Source: an uncultured Opitutaceae bacterium
Lineage (GTDB): Bacteria > Verrucomicrobiota > Verrucomicrobiia > Opitutales > Opitutaceae
NCBI GenBank assembly: GCA_937902925.1
Contig: CALFNN010000105.1
Location: 239,605-303,604, forward strand
Direction: 5' to 3'
Length of the DNA stretch: 64,000 nucleotides
In this document: positions 205 through 44,715 of the stretch, piece by piece
Position numbering within the stretch: position 1 is the first letter of the stretch
Layout of the letters: each line of letters opens with the position of its first letter
The notes under the pieces: model-generated
Told to the model about the DNA's origin: nothing
What the model saw: only the letters and a program-made list of their open reading frames with translations
Databases searched by the model: none
Position numbers and translations under genes: made by a program

Positions 205-281
205 GGACGCTTAGCTCAGTTGGTTAGAGCACCTGCTTCACACGCAGGGGGTCTGCGGTTCGAGTCCGCAAGCGTCCACCA
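205..281 (+). tRNA. tRNA-Val (anticodon CAC)
   Basis: A 77-base cloverleaf: acceptor arms GGACGCT (205-211) and AGCGTCC (271-277) pair fully, followed by discriminator A and an encoded CCA (279-281). The D arm reads TAGCTCAGTTGGTTAGAGCA and the T arm contains GGTTCGAGTCC. The anticodon loop is TTCACAC with anticodon CAC, reading GUG valine codons. It stands alone, between a membrane protein gene and a convergent gene. Confidence 0.95.
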
Positions 282-7800: not shown

Positions 7801-9435
7801 TTACCTCGCTTCCGTCGGGGTCTTCGCGTTGTCGAGGATGTTGCCCTCGAGGTGGAGCGATTTCAGTTCGCCGGCGCCGGCGGAAAGAAATGTTTCCGTT
7901 CCTGGAAAGGTGCGGCTGTTGCGCAGGATCGCGCCCGGAGATTTTGCGAGGCGCAGCACGGGTGAGCCGGCGACGGGTTTCCGGGTCGTTACGTCGTCGA
8001 GTTCGAGATCGCCCGCGGATTCGATGGCGAAGGCGGGACCGCGGTCGGCGTTCACCTGCACGTGGTGCAATTCCAGCGCATCGGTGTAGCGCGCACTGAG
8101 GCCCGTCTGGCCGGCGCCGACGACGTCGGTCAGCCGGAGCGCCGCGATGCGCATTTCGGGCAGCCCGTCGATGTCGGCCACTTTGCGGGCGCCGTGGATG
8201 GTGATGTTGCTGATGCCGATGTTGCGGAAGACCGGCGTCCGATCCGACACCGGTTCCTCCGTGGTCGCGGATTCACCACCCATGACATAGTAGCTCGTGA
8301 CGACGATGCCGGTGCCGACGTTTTCCATCGTCCAGTTGTCGAAGCGGACGTCCTCGACCACGCCGCCGCGTCCGCGACGGCTCTTGATCCGGATGCCGAC
8401 CTGCGTGTCGATCGCAGTGATGTTGCTCGCGACGACGTTGCGAACGCTGCCGGCGGTCTCGCTGCCAATGACGACCGCGCCGTGCGCGTGGTGCACGGTG
8501 CAGTTGGTGATCGTGACGTGCTCGGACGGCCGGTTGACGCGGAGACCGTCGGCGTCCTTGCCGGACTTGATGACGATCCCGTCGTCGCCCGTGTCGACGT
8601 AGCAGTCGGAGATGTGGACGAAGCGGGAGGAGTCGACGGCGATGCCGTTGGCGTGCGGGCCGGGGTAGGTCTGGATCATCACGTTGCGGACGGTCGCGTT
8701 TTCCGAGTAAAGCAGGTGCACCACAAACATCGGCGCGCCGACGATGCGGACATCCTCCACGAGGACGTTCTTCGCGTTCATGAAGCAGATAAACGAAGGG
8801 CGCAGCTCGCCGGCGGCGTCGCGGTATTCCTGCTCGGAAACCGGCTTTTTGTCCTCCAGCGCCTGCAGCAAGTGATCCCAATGCGGACCGTTGGCGCTCA
8901 TCGACTCGTCGCCGCCAGTGGAGACGACGCCGTTGCGCGCCTTGAGATAATTCGCGTAGGCATCCGGGTAGGCCTTGCGCCACGCCTCGTAGTCGCCGGT
9001 GGTGATCACGCCCCGCCCGGTGACGGTGACGTTTTCCACATCGTGACCGCCGATGAGCGGCTGCGGCACCAGCGCTTCGACGCCCAGATAGCGGCCCTGC
9101 ACGAACGGCAGCGACGCGACGGGAAACGCGATCGTCGCGCCGGCGTCGACGTCGAGCGTCATGTTGCTGAACAGCTCAATCGGCCCGGAGGAGTATTTCC
9201 CCGGAGGCACGTAGATGGTGCCGCCGCCGGCGGCCCTGGCGGCGGCGATGGCCTGCCGGAAGGCGTCGGTGGCGAGCGCCGAGCCGTCGCGTTTCGCGCC
9301 ATAGTCGGCGACGTTGAACACCTGCCGGCCGGAGTCGGCGGCGAAGGCGCGATCGGCCGTGATCGACGTTGTGGTGAGCACAGCGCTCCAAAGGGCGACG
9401 CGCGCGAATGATTTCTTTCGAGACGAATATGACAT
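7801..9435 (-). CDS. Exported glycoside hydrolase family 28 (polygalacturonase-like)
   Basis: A 544-aa right-handed beta-helix enzyme of the polygalacturonase family. It starts with a signal peptide (FARVALWSAVLTTTSITADRAFA, cleavage before ADSG), then the GH28 N-terminal motif FNVADYGAKRDG and the parallel-helix body. Of the four GH28 active-site motifs, DD (DTGDDGIVIKSG), HG (HHAHGAVVIGSE) and RIK (GIRIKSRRGRGG) are present, but the usual N-T/N-D-G-I-D is HANGIAVDSS: the first catalytic Asp is Asn (codon AAC). Substrate is probably a pectic galacturonan or a branched pectin side chain; with the altered motif this is uncertain. The gene stands alone, 73 bases after ilvN on the same strand. 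Confidence 0.85.
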   Translation of the reverse strand: MSYSSRKKSFARVALWSAVLTTTSITADRAFAADSGRQVFNVADYGAKRDGSALATDAFRQAIAAARAAGGGTIYVPPGKYSSGPIELFSNMTLDVDAGATIAFPVASLPFVQGRYLGVEALVPQPLIGGHDVENVTVTGRGVITTGDYEAWRKAYPDAYANYLKARNGVVSTGGDESMSANGPHWDHLLQALEDKKPVSEQEYRDAAGELRPSFICFMNAKNVLVEDVRIVGAPMFVVHLLYSENATVRNVMIQTYPGPHANGIAVDSSRFVHISDCYVDTGDDGIVIKSGKDADGLRVNRPSEHVTITNCTVHHAHGAVVIGSETAGSVRNVVASNITAIDTQVGIRIKSRRGRGGVVEDVRFDNWTMENVGTGIVVTSYYVMGGESATTEEPVSDRTPVFRNIGISNITIHGARKVADIDGLPEMRIAALRLTDVVGAGQTGLSARYTDALELHHVQVNADRGPAFAIESAGDLELDDVTTRKPVAGSPVLRLAKSPGAILRNSRTFPGTETFLSAGAGELKSLHLEGNILDNAKTPTEAR

Positions 9436-9508
9436 GGGGGCCTTTCGTGACGACGCGCCGGAGCGGCCGGGGTCCTCACCATTGCCAGTCGCGGCGGCTT
9501 GGGACGAC

Positions 9509-9835
9509 TCAATTCAACGATGAGCCGCACTTACGGGGTTCGAACACGCGGGAGAAGAAGTCCGGGCCGAGGTCGGGGCGGACGCGGACGGAGAGGACGT
9601 CGTGGAGTTTTTCGAGCTGGCGTTCGACTTGTTCGAGCCGCGGCTCGTCGGCGACAAGGAGGAGGATGCGGCTCGTTGAGCGATCACCGGTCGGCGCGCA
9701 GACGATCGCCTCGAGGTTGAACGCGCGGCGGGCGAAGAGGCCGGTGATGTGTGACATCGCGCCGGGATGATTCCGGACGAGGAGTTCGAGGACGGCCGTG
9801 TTTCCGCAGGGCGGGGCGGAAGAAGTGTCACCCAT
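9509..9835 (-). CDS. ilvN: Acetolactate synthase small (regulatory) subunit, AHAS I type
   Basis: Regulatory subunit that binds valine through an ACT domain and gives feedback inhibition to the IlvB catalytic subunit in branched-chain amino acid synthesis. The 108-aa product matches E. coli IlvN closely (VLELLVRNHPGAMSHITGLF, ARRAFNLEAI, LLLVADEPRLEQVERQLEKL). It lacks the second domain of the more common 150-170-aa IlvH type. Start ATG at 9835 has AAAGGG seven bases upstream; longer in-frame extensions overlap ilvB and are not coding. It follows ilvB by 55 bases and shares its leader-controlled transcript. Confidence 0.93.
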   Translation of the reverse strand: MGDTSSAPPCGNTAVLELLVRNHPGAMSHITGLFARRAFNLEAIVCAPTGDRSTSRILLLVADEPRLEQVERQLEKLHDVLSVRVRPDLGPDFFSRVFEPRKCGSSLN

Positions 9836-9890
9836 TATGTGACCCTTTTCGGGAGCGGACGGAGTCGGGCGGGAGGCGATGGTGGTTGAT

Positions 9891-11603
9891 TCAGGCATGG
9901 GAGGCGGCGGGTTGGAGGTTGAGGGCGAGTTCGGGGGCGGTGATGGTCTGGTGATTCGCGGCGCCGGGGGGCACCATCGGATAGACGTTGGTCTGGTCGT
10001 GGATCGGGATGTCGATGAGGCACGGGCCGGGTTGGGCGAGGGCGTCGGCGAGATCGGCGAGCGGATCGCCGGCGGGATCGAGGCGGACGCCGCGGATGCC
10101 GAACGCGCGCGCAACGGCGGCGAAGTCCGGCGCCCGGTGCAGCGACGACGCAGCGTAGCGGCCGCCGTAGAACAACTCCTGCTGCTGGCGGACGAGGCCG
10201 AGGTTGGCATTGTTGAAGAGGAGGATCGCGACGGGCAGATCGAGTTCGGCGAGCGTGGCGAGTTCCTGGATGTTCATGAGGATCGAGCCGTCGCCGCTCA
10301 CGCAGGCGACGCGCCGGCCGGGGCAGGCGAGCGCGGCGCCGATTGCGGCAGGCACGCCGAAGCCCATCGTGCCGAGTCCGCCGGAGGTCAGCAGCGTGCG
10401 CGGGCGGCGGAACGGATAGGCCTGGGCGACCCACATCTGGTGCTGGCCGACGTCGGTCGAGATGATCGCGTCGGCGGGGAGTTGCTCGGACAGGAAGTCG
10501 ATCAGGTTGAGCGGATGCAGCGGGTCTTCCGCGCGCGGCGGGCAATGGAGCGGATGCGCGGCGCGCAGGGCGGTAGCGCGGGCGCGCCACGTGGAGCGCG
10601 ACATCGAGGACGGCAAACGGTCGAGCAGGCGGCGGAGGATTTCGGCGGCGTCGCCCGTGAGCGCGAGCGCGGTGGATTTGATTTTGCCGAACTCGGCGCG
10701 GTCGATGTCGAGGTGCGCGATGGTGGCGTGCGGGCAGAACTCGGCGACCTTGCCGGTGGCGCGATCATCGAAGCGGGCGCCGATGGCGAGGAGCAGGTCG
10801 GTTTCCTGCAGGAGGAGGTTGGTGCCCTTGCCCCCGTGCATGCCGAGCATGCCCATGAAACGCGGATCGCCGGCGGGCATCGCGCCGAGTGCCATGAGCG
10901 TCGACACGACGGGCGCGTCGAGCCGGCGGGAGAGTTCGCGGGCGAGGTCGGAGGCGCCGGCGCCGATCACGCCGCCGCCGAGGTAGAGGACCGGGCGTTG
11001 CGCGCGGCGGAGGTGGGCGGCGAGTTCTTCGATTGCGGAATCGGCGCACGGCGGTGGCGGTTGCGCGCGGCCGGGTTCGGGGAGCGAGCCGACGTCGATC
11101 GTGGCATTGAGAACGTCCTTCGGCACATCGATGGCGACGGGGCCGGGGCGGCCGGATTCGGCGAGTTGAAACGCGAGCGGAACGGTTTCGAGCAGCTCGC
11201 CGATGGAGCGGACGAGGAAGTTGTGTTTCGTGATTGGCAGCGTGAGGCCGTAGGTGTCGACCTCCTGAAAGGCGTCGGTGCCGATGAGCGATTGCGGCAC
11301 CTGGCCGGTGATCGCCACGAGCGGGACGGAGTCGAGACGCGCGTCGGCGATGGCGGTGAGGAGGTTGGTGGCGCCGGGGCCGGAGGTGGCGACGCAGACG
11401 GCGGCGCGGCCGGTGGCGCGCGCCATGCCCTGCGCGATGAAGCCCGCGCCCTGTTCGTGGCGCGCGAGGACGTGGCGGATGGCGCTGCCGTGGAGGGCGT
11501 CGTAGAACGGCAGGATGGCGCCGCCGGGGATGCCGGCGAGGGTGTGGATGTCCTGGCGCTCCAGCAGCGTGCGCAGGAGGGTGGCTCCGGTGTATTTTTT
11601 CAT
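9891..11603 (-). CDS. ilvB: Acetolactate synthase large (catalytic) subunit, AHAS I type
   Basis: Thiamine-diphosphate enzyme that condenses two pyruvates to 2-acetolactate, or pyruvate plus 2-oxobutyrate to acetohydroxybutyrate: first common step of Val/Leu/Ile synthesis. The 570-aa product has the catalytic Glu50 in ARHEQGAGFIAQG, the FAD/TPP regions TDAFQEVDTYGL and TDVGQHQMWVAQAYPFRRP, and the ThDP-Mg motif GDGS...NN. The end, YPMVPPGAANH, and many other stretches are those of E. coli IlvB (AHAS I) rather than IlvI/IlvG. I chose the ATG at 11603 (MKKYTGATLL), because the open frame further upstream runs through the attenuator hairpin. Expression is very probably set by the leader at 11659-11803. 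Confidence 0.95.
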   Translation of the reverse strand: MKKYTGATLLRTLLERQDIHTLAGIPGGAILPFYDALHGSAIRHVLARHEQGAGFIAQGMARATGRAAVCVATSGPGATNLLTAIADARLDSVPLVAITGQVPQSLIGTDAFQEVDTYGLTLPITKHNFLVRSIGELLETVPLAFQLAESGRPGPVAIDVPKDVLNATIDVGSLPEPGRAQPPPPCADSAIEELAAHLRRAQRPVLYLGGGVIGAGASDLARELSRRLDAPVVSTLMALGAMPAGDPRFMGMLGMHGGKGTNLLLQETDLLLAIGARFDDRATGKVAEFCPHATIAHLDIDRAEFGKIKSTALALTGDAAEILRRLLDRLPSSMSRSTWRARATALRAAHPLHCPPRAEDPLHPLNLIDFLSEQLPADAIISTDVGQHQMWVAQAYPFRRPRTLLTSGGLGTMGFGVPAAIGAALACPGRRVACVSGDGSILMNIQELATLAELDLPVAILLFNNANLGLVRQQQELFYGGRYAASSLHRAPDFAAVARAFGIRGVRLDPAGDPLADLADALAQPGPCLIDIPIHDQTNVYPMVPPGAANHQTITAPELALNLQPAASHA

Positions 11604-11658
11604 GAGGCGATGGCGATGGCGGTTGATGCCGCCTCCCGCGCCGGGTCCGAACGGGGCC

Positions 11659-11695
11659 AAAAAAAAAGCCCCCTCCGGTCGGCACCGGAGGGGGC
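11659..11695 (-). terminator. Intrinsic terminator acting as ilvBN attenuator
   Basis: Read on the minus strand, a perfect 12-bp GC-rich stem GCCCCCTCCGGT / ACCGGAGGGGGC with a four-base loop is followed directly by nine T. It lies between the leader peptide stop (11711) and the ilvB start (11603), so it can only stop transcription before the structural genes: the position of an attenuator. The leader end contains GAGGGG (11716-11721), which can pair with CCCCTC in the terminator's 5' arm and so could form an antiterminator when a ribosome stalls upstream. Confidence 0.9.
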
Positions 11696-11710
11696 GAAAG
11701 CGTATTGCGT

Positions 11711-11803
11711 TCAGGCCCCTCGCGGCGCGTGCGTAACGACGACGACGCTGACGACCACGAGGGCGAGGCCAGAGAGAGTGCGCGTTGTGCCGGAGGAAAT
11801 CAT
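11711..11803 (-). CDS. ilvBN leader peptide with Val run (ivbL-like)
   Basis: A 30-codon frame ATG...TGA encoding MISSGTTRTL followed by SGLALVVVSVVVVTHAPRGA. It holds three Leu (10, 13, 15) and seven Val in an eight-codon stretch (16-23, interrupted by one Ser). The pattern matches the E. coli ivbL leader, whose core is VVVVRVVVVVGNAP. Its stop is 15 bases before the attenuator hairpin and it precedes ilvB. The expected role is to sense charged tRNA-Val and tRNA-Leu: stalling at the Val run favours antitermination. No strong ribosome binding site is visible before the ATG, so the exact start is less certain than the peptide itself. Confidence 0.88.
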   Translation of the reverse strand: MISSGTTRTLSGLALVVVSVVVVTHAPRGA

Positions 11804-12007
11804 GAACGAGTGATGGGCGGAAAAAGGAGCGCGGACGCGCACGTGTCAAGAACGCAGTAACCTGCGAGCCGACCGGCGTGCGCGTTGCGCCCGGGGTATT
11901 ATCGGCACAAGGCGCGGCGGCTTGAGCGGAGTTGAGGGCGTGGGACAAGGAAGGAAAGCGCGTTGTCGCTTGCGGGTTCGGGGGCCGACGCTTTGCGTTG
12001 CCGGCGC

Positions 12008-13696
<1,689 letters not shown>

Positions 13697-44511: not shown

Positions 44512-44715
44512 ATGAAAAATCCTTTCCGCAGCACCCGCATCTTCGTCGGTGAAATGATCGACGAGCTGAAGAAAGCCACGTGGCCGACCAAGGCCGAGCT
44601 GCGCGATTCCACCGTCGTGGTGGTCGTCGCCGCGGTGATCCTCGGTGTGTTCACGAGCATCAGCGATTTCTCCCTTTATCAGGTCGTCGACCTTTTCACC
44701 TCCTGGGTCAGCTAA
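44512..44715 (+). CDS. secE: Preprotein translocase subunit SecE
   Basis: Small inner-membrane subunit of the SecYEG channel, 67 aa. The amphipathic helix with FVGEMIDELKKATWPTKAEL and a single membrane helix (STVVVVVAAVILGVFTSISD) are the conserved core of the short, one-helix SecE. ATG 44512. Followed by nusG after 12 bases. Confidence 0.95.
   Translation: MKNPFRSTRIFVGEMIDELKKATWPTKAELRDSTVVVVVAAVILGVFTSISDFSLYQVVDLFTSWVS

Follow-up and report, generated by a model that had tools for sequence, protein, structure and literature searches.

The ilvBN operon of the window (the whole stretch of DNA analysed, 64,000 nucleotides) is preceded by a short valine-rich reading frame and by two mutually exclusive RNA helices. 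We read this arrangement as a ribosome-mediated transcription attenuator of the ivbL type that would mainly sense Val-tRNA, and on the sequence and its comparative analysis we put the probability of this reading at roughly nine in ten. A run of end-product codons, a predicted intrinsic terminator, a computed antiterminator sharing a strand with that terminator and a ribosome geometry suited to switching between the two are all found at this locus.

The leader frame lies on the reverse strand at positions 11803–11711, with an ATG at 11803 and 30 codons followed by a TGA (11713–11711), and encodes MISSGTTRTLSGLALVVVSVVVVTHAPRGA. Seven of the eight codons from 16 to 23 (GUG GUC GUC AGC GUC GUC GUC GUU, 11735–11758, reverse strand) specify valine, at codons 16–18 and 20–23, and leucine occupies codons 10, 13 and 15. 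Fifteen bases (11710–11696) separate the stop codon from the predicted terminator (11659–11695, reverse strand), which comprises a G+C-rich 12-bp stem (11695–11668) closed by the loop GCCG and followed by nine T (11667–11659). The first-pass annotation of this DNA had reported a 30-codon frame with seven valines in codons 16–23 and three leucines ahead of them, with its stop 15 bases before a 12-bp stem and nine T and all of this ahead of ilvB; the coordinates and the translation agree with it in every respect.

The ATG of ilvB, encoding the acetolactate synthase large subunit (9891–11603, reverse strand), is located 55 nt beyond the T tract at 11603, and the ATG of ilvN, encoding the small subunit of 129 residues (9509–9898, reverse strand), overlaps the ilvB stop by 8 bases. 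The two products score over the cut-offs of TIGR00118 and TIGR00119, respectively, with residues 2–129 used in the ilvN profile search. Their best NCBIfam models are NF006016 (PRK08155) and NF006036 (PRK08178), which we take to represent IlvB and IlvN of E. coli, and both scores are below the strict cut-offs; ilvBN was assigned to the E. coli AHAS I type by the clade that it shares with E. coli IlvB. Between the T tract and ilvB (11604–11658) there is a G-rich, GGAG-like sequence with the potential to fold into a small hairpin, and, as judged by eye, several group A relatives (defined below) keep it too. A gene read from its sequence as ABC-F-like and ATP-binding (12009–13696, forward strand) diverges from the same upstream region, and a tRNA-Val gene with anticodon CAC (205–281, forward strand) lies some 9 kb past the distal end of ilvBN. 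A known RNA family was ruled out for the leader, as a search of Rfam (release 15) returned no match at the gathering score in the leader region and just three tRNAs elsewhere in the window.

Chance was ruled out as the origin of the valine run by a count of the frames of the window and by simulation. Among 726 short frames (10–60 codons) in the 64-kb window the leader alone has at least seven valines in eight codons and one other frame has six, and no short frame with six or more appeared in 40 simulated windows generated with an order-3 Markov model trained on the window. The other frame with six valines begins at 44554 on the forward strand and encodes 53 residues (MIDELKKATWPTKAELRDSTVVVVVAAV...); its product presumably resembles SecE, so that valine runs occur in ordinary membrane proteins too. 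A run of five GTN codons is by itself nothing special in this genome, with 70 matches against 99 for the reversed pattern, and this pattern misses the leader described here (VVVSVVVV); its match inside the window, at about 44614, falls within the SecE-like frame. Among 49 stretches around such sites outside the window (about 74 kb), nine short or nearly ended frames were seen, none with a terminator within 90 nt. When the leader and terminator were compared with 200 dinucleotide shuffles, two of these folded at least as well (z −3.37). Conservation is a stronger test of the element than any of these chance and shuffle statistics.

Orthologous ilvB genes, defined by E ≤ 1e-150, turned up in 49 of 252 genomes from the family, counting that of the window, in two further genomes from a sample of 57 and in four from a sample of 387 of the phylum. 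The resulting 55 loci form group A, with 33 loci at 68–100% identity to the window, and group B, with 22 loci at 53–61%. Conservation of the frame, the valine run and the hairpin in relatives, which the first-pass annotation had proposed to examine, was borne out at 51 of the 55 loci (29 of 33 in group A and all 22 in group B). The four incomplete loci belong to group A; one (L051) has N in the frame, with the valine stretch and the hairpin still visible, and three others (L044, L063, L068) run off the end of their contigs. No complete locus among the 55 lacks the leader. Across all the loci put through the terminator script, it found no terminator for L081 and L103, and the hairpins of L047 and L052 were added by hand. 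Three of the ilvB matches (L015, L038 and L155, from genomes G033, G183 and G386) contain one internal stop each, possibly through decay or sequencing error, and their leaders are present.

The leader goes with this one type of ilvB. The other ilvB of the same genome (42% identity) has no such leader, and neither do 14 of 15 like copies in relatives when scanned for at least five Val/Ile in eight codons. The exception, L025 of genome G038, has before its ilvB a valine-rich frame that starts with GTG and ends in GVVVVTVDVVS, with an inverted repeat (CGTGGTGAG..CTCACCACG) and no T tract; it is possibly a separate leader.

The end of the leader frame is predicted to pair with the 5' side of the terminator. 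Segment 2 (11716–11728, reverse strand; GCGCCG-C-GAGGGG), within the end of the frame, forms the 5' strand of the antiterminator, and segment 3 (11682–11693, reverse strand; CCCCUC-CGGUGC), which overlaps the 5' arm of the terminator and extends into its loop, forms the 3' strand. The pairing of GAGGGG with the terminator arm had been noted in the first-pass annotation and stands, but its extent was understated, since the predicted helix has 12 bp and includes the loop. In ribosome-free RNA the predicted partner of the frame end is instead segment 1 (11755–11770, reverse strand; GGCC followed by CCUCGUGG). Folding for the terminator and antiterminator states, also proposed at the first pass, gave mutually exclusive helices in the window. 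Each leader was then folded from the end of the valine run to the start of the terminator 3' arm, mimicking a ribosome on the valine run, and the frame end paired with the terminator 5' side in 60 of 60 leaders (29 from group A, 22 from group B and nine others) with 9–18 pairs.

Both helices covary in the alignment of 29 group A leaders. For the terminator 97.4% of the cells are paired, with a score of 0.202 against 0.118 after shuffling (0 of 500 as high). The antiterminator has 87.6% of its cells paired and scores 0.220, compared with 0.138 for shuffles, of which 0 of 500 came as high. Double-change cells in the antiterminator number 18, against 5.0 in the shuffles (0 of 500), and sliding the partner strand by one to three columns lowers the pairing to 48–59%. 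Antiterminator pairs changed on both sides (4 against 3.0, 152 of 500) and further pair types (11 against 9.0, 33 of 500) do not go beyond the shuffles. The innermost antiterminator pair (columns 32–61) is unpaired in 23 of the 29 leaders, so that in most of them the antiterminator has 11 pairs at best. RNAalifold reported the terminator only for this alignment. In a swap test on 59 leaders (L082, though folded for the antiterminator, was left out), segment 2 paired with its own segment 3 at a mean of −22.2 kcal/mol and with that of other species at −17.7; none of 2000 permutations was as low, and the own pairing was better than the mean of the others in 56 of 59. Against its own shuffles, segment 2 reached z ≤ −2 in only 35 of 59 leaders, with some values near 0. 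The loop of a terminator needs no partner, yet here it covaries with segment 2, which makes a good case for selection on both helices. GAGGG is kept in differing reading frames, being read as PRG in the majority of group A leaders and as REG in a subgroup. This suggests that the constraint acts on the RNA sequence and not on the C-terminus of the peptide. Sequence and comparison show the frame, the conservation and covariation of the helices and their geometry.

The position of the valine run fits the helices. With a ribosome footprint assumed to reach 10 nt beyond the A-site codon of the window leader, 12–13 antiterminator pairs can form with codons 13–22 in the A site, 9 with codon 23 and 0 with codon 26, and at most one from there on; as the antiterminator is lost once the ribosome moves past codon 22, the valine run ends where the antiterminator starts being covered. 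In the same model, once the ribosome stands on the stop codon, segment 2 is hidden beneath it while the terminator stays accessible. The distance from the stop to the terminator is at least 13 nt at all 70 loci with a terminator found by the script (among 74 loci for which a frame was given), with ranges of 14–25 nt in group A, 18–30 nt in group B and 22–25 nt in six enteric loci. In the complete RNA at equilibrium the terminator is preferred at every ribosome position tried, so read-through must stem from the order of folding. Antitermination through the order of folding is usual in ribosome-mediated attenuation.

From these features we infer translation of the leader, stalling, read-through and a response to valine and possibly also to leucine. 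The polymerase would transcribe the leader while a ribosome begins on the valine-rich frame. If charged Val-tRNA is short, the ribosome would halt on the valine codons 16–22 and leave segment 2 free, and segments 2 and 3 would pair over 12 bp before segment 4 exists, blocking the terminator and allowing ilvBN to be transcribed. If valine is ample, the ribosome would reach the stop codon and mask segment 2, not segment 3, and the 12-bp terminator would end transcription. In the absence of a ribosome, segment 1 would pair with segment 2 and the terminator would form as well.

The start of the leader transcript is predicted from a conserved box upstream. A putative −35 box, TTGACA (11844–11849, reverse strand), whose preceding C is invariant across group A, is followed at 17 nt by a T-rich, −10-like hexamer (11826–11821, reverse strand). 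A CTTGA(C/T) box is found 38–50 nt upstream of the leader ATG at 29 of 29 group A loci (at 44 nt in L043), with the T-rich, −10-like block 17 nt after it; in group B, TTGA(C/T) occurs at a comparable distance at only six of 22 loci. A scan for consensus promoters from 9400 to 12100 listed none at all, neither at the CTTGA box nor between the T tract and the ilvB ATG. The first-pass annotation had raised a transcription start between the hairpin and ilvB as the observation that would count against attenuation; judged from sequence, with no promoter listed in that 55-nt gap and the box placed upstream of the leader at all 29 of these group A loci, the predicted start lies ahead of the leader. 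If transcription starts 36 nt from the box, the 5' end would fall 2–14 nt before the leader ATG, which predicts that group A leader transcripts begin near-leaderless. Most group A leaders show no pairing with the anti-Shine-Dalgarno sequence ahead of their start (median +0.4 kcal/mol, with two loci at about −5), so that in most of them translation of the leader rests on an unproven kind of start. Whether such a frame, with no Shine-Dalgarno sequence and only a few bases predicted ahead of its ATG, couples well enough to transcription to drive attenuation is a question that the element raises.

Control through the charging of both tRNA-Val and tRNA-Leu had been proposed in the first-pass annotation. 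The valine part is upheld by the frame, run and hairpin conserved at 51 of 55 loci, and leucine is less certain as a sensor. Leucine codons ahead of the valine run might act as co-sensors, with leucine read about as strongly as valine. They are present in all 29 group A leaders (2–7, median 4), the antiterminator can form while the A site holds codon 13 or codon 15, and E. coli ivbL has been shown to respond to both valine and leucine (PMC11187965, in the part available). Against equal sensing, valine codons are about twice as numerous as leucine codons (medians 8 and 4), and the leucine codons, 81% of which are CTC in group A leaders, double as pairing bases of segment 1. The Leu15–Val16 stretch (CCUCGUGG) pairs with the frame end, so structure alone could keep these codons. 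Valine codons in group A leaders are also biased (GTC 61% and GTA 12%, where the ilvB genes themselves have 37% and 1%), and the bias in both could reflect either tRNA supply or RNA pairing. We regard sensing of leucine on a par with valine as possible, while leaning against it.

The relationships of the IlvB proteins bear on the history of the leader. In a quick tree of 83 sequences, one clade of 32 rows (support 99) contains groups A and B, Enterobacteriaceae, Accumulibacter, Myxococcota, Fibrobacterota, Spirochaetota and Bacteroidota; the named rows were taken from among at least 80 loci. All 32 ilvB genes of this clade have a valine-rich frame, 30 of them found by the script, one (L080) by a looser scan and one (L076) with 11 valines scattered over 51 codons. 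The hairpins of L076, L080 and L081 were judged by eye, and that of L081 has no T tract. In a more careful tree of 32 rows, E. coli and the other enterics join group B and Accumulibacter (100/98), and holding groups A and B together was rejected with an AU p of 0.0025 for a grouping named after seeing a tree; the long branches L094 and L125 are unsure in their own positions. As E. coli IlvB falls within a leader-bearing clade of several phyla, beside one of the two Opitutales groups, the leader and operon probably moved together, and movement of the operon with its leader between phyla is the simplest reading of these sequences. The leader itself is short and diverged, and the valine-rich frame is found throughout the sampled clade. 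A search of plasmids for ilvB gave matches below 60% identity only.

Alternatively, valine leaders could have arisen separately in each phylum before similar ilvB genes. The leader and terminator sequences do differ between groups A and B, and leaders are described before other ilvB genes too, for example in Actinobacteria (PMC1262725, in the part available). The presence of valine-rich frames in all 32 rows of one clade argues against separate origins, as does their distribution outside it, where among 51 rows the script (at least five Val/Ile in eight codons) found a leader with a terminator only in 11 gamma-proteobacterial rows of a single clade, with mixed Ile/Val/Leu. We consider such convergence unlikely.

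A plain terminator of fixed efficiency, or an RNA-processing element, next to a valine frame that is untranslated or irrelevant would account for the prediction of the terminator in the complete RNA at all ribosome positions and for the missing Shine-Dalgarno sequence of most group A loci. Such a hairpin has no need of a covarying loop partner, yet segment 2 covaries with the loop, and the valine run is present at all 51 complete loci, spelled with all four valine codons, which together make this explanation very improbable. That the switch senses a small molecule or an RNA-binding protein instead of a stalled ribosome is hardly credible, even though some ilvB leaders elsewhere are described as ppGpp riboswitches (PMC10272879, in the part available) and a class outside the known families might be at work, given that no Rfam family is matched at the gathering score in this region or at 20 related loci, with only weak matches below that score, that little outside the helices is conserved in the alignment of frame end and terminator, and that the end of the valine run coincides with the point where the antiterminator becomes covered.

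The valine attenuator proposed here can be compared with several described systems. The ivbL region of E. coli and other Enterobacteriaceae shares the valine-rich leader and hairpin, the order ivbL-ilvB-ilvN and an IlvB of the same clade, and the antiterminator reaches into the terminator loop in all six enteric loci folded. It differs in the terminator sequence, which is AACCCCGCCGGCGC in the enterics and GCCCCCUCCGG or close to it in group A, in the distance from stop to stem (22–25 nt in the six enteric loci against 14–25 nt in group A), and in that group A has the CTTGA box 38–50 nt upstream of its ATG and in most cases lacks a Shine-Dalgarno sequence. Attenuation of ilvB by upstream frames is described as likely to be common, and the ilvB-OMG motif has 41 representatives in various phyla; this motif and ilvB-II of Corynebacterium have a predicted upstream frame rich in branched-chain residues before ilvB, in ilvB-II with a terminator and an antiterminator (PMC10272879). 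As described in the available part of that source, these frames are rich in branched-chain residues generally (and in threonine for ilvB-OMG) and have no valine run, and our region has no Rfam match; some ilvB-OMG representatives may overlap the present leaders, the comparison being by description only. The ilvB1NC leader of Mycobacterium tuberculosis likewise has an upstream frame and mutually exclusive terminator and antiterminator, with a ribosome at the stop masking the antiterminator, and differs in its regulatory codons, LVVI (PMC13236596, in the part available). Terminator, antiterminator and anti-antiterminator hairpins are described for ilvBNC of Corynebacterium glutamicum (PMC11857589, in the part available). 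The LEU element and ilvB leaders of Actinobacteria also encode leader peptides with branched-chain codons before leuA and ilvB; in those leaders the runs of Ile/Val/Leu codons share sequence with the terminator hairpin, whereas here the run is upstream of it, and in Streptomyces coelicolor replacing possible control codons is described as having had no effect (PMC1262725, in the part available).

No earlier description of such leaders in Verrucomicrobia was found in the available portions of the open-licence literature. The assignment to this phylum is indirect, in that those of the nearest IlvB proteins that carry an organism name belong to Verrucomicrobia bacterium, Opitutaceae bacterium, Opitutae bacterium or Opitutus sp. 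ER46. The element would be a well-supported addition to the ivbL-type attenuators, extending a model mechanism of gene control to a phylum with no earlier report found and bringing clean comparative evidence for both alternative helices. Because the leader accompanies a single type of ilvB in several phyla, how a classic attenuator evolved becomes a testable question.

Two further candidate leaders were seen in the same genome. Its citramalate synthase gene (TIGR00977, 687.7 bits against a cut-off of 450) is preceded by an isoleucine-rich leader, MNSAPAIVRAISTIIIGRSPGRGKMA, and a terminator, CCCCGGGC, about 163–33 nt before the match at 1501 of L208 (G000:C6). A leader of this kind was recognised at eight of 30 citramalate synthase loci, its own included, and at none of the other 22 (the gene is present in 34 of 43 genomes); seven of the terminators were found by the script, and the eighth, at L229, is a similar hairpin seen by eye. 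Before leuA (L209, G000:C80) a leucine-containing leader, MRVSLQALRLIIAHDL, follows a TTGACT box about 287 nt upstream of the leuA match, with the hairpin GCACGACC..GGTCGTGC and no Rfam match, and in position it resembles the LEU element described in the available part of PMC1262725. The motif CGACTTA recurs before leuA at 24 of 30 loci, 17 of them with exactly CTTCGACTTA; the frame around it was missed by the script at many of the 30.

Taken together, these observations suggest a wider picture to us, tentatively and at a little under even odds. In it, ivbL would be one member of a portable cassette in which a valine leader travels with ilvBN among Opitutales, Enterobacteriaceae and other phyla, group A would use a near-leaderless start with no Shine-Dalgarno sequence, and this genome would have three dedicated leaders (valine for ilvBN, isoleucine for citramalate synthase and leucine for leuA), with each branch controlled by its own end product. 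The three-leader picture is the weakest part of this reading. No leader was seen before ilvN-ilvC (L212, L211). A gap of 24 nt separates the end of a tRNA-Val gene with anticodon TAC (1400–1476 of L212, G000:C36) from the other ilvN-ilvC pair of this genome, which follows it.
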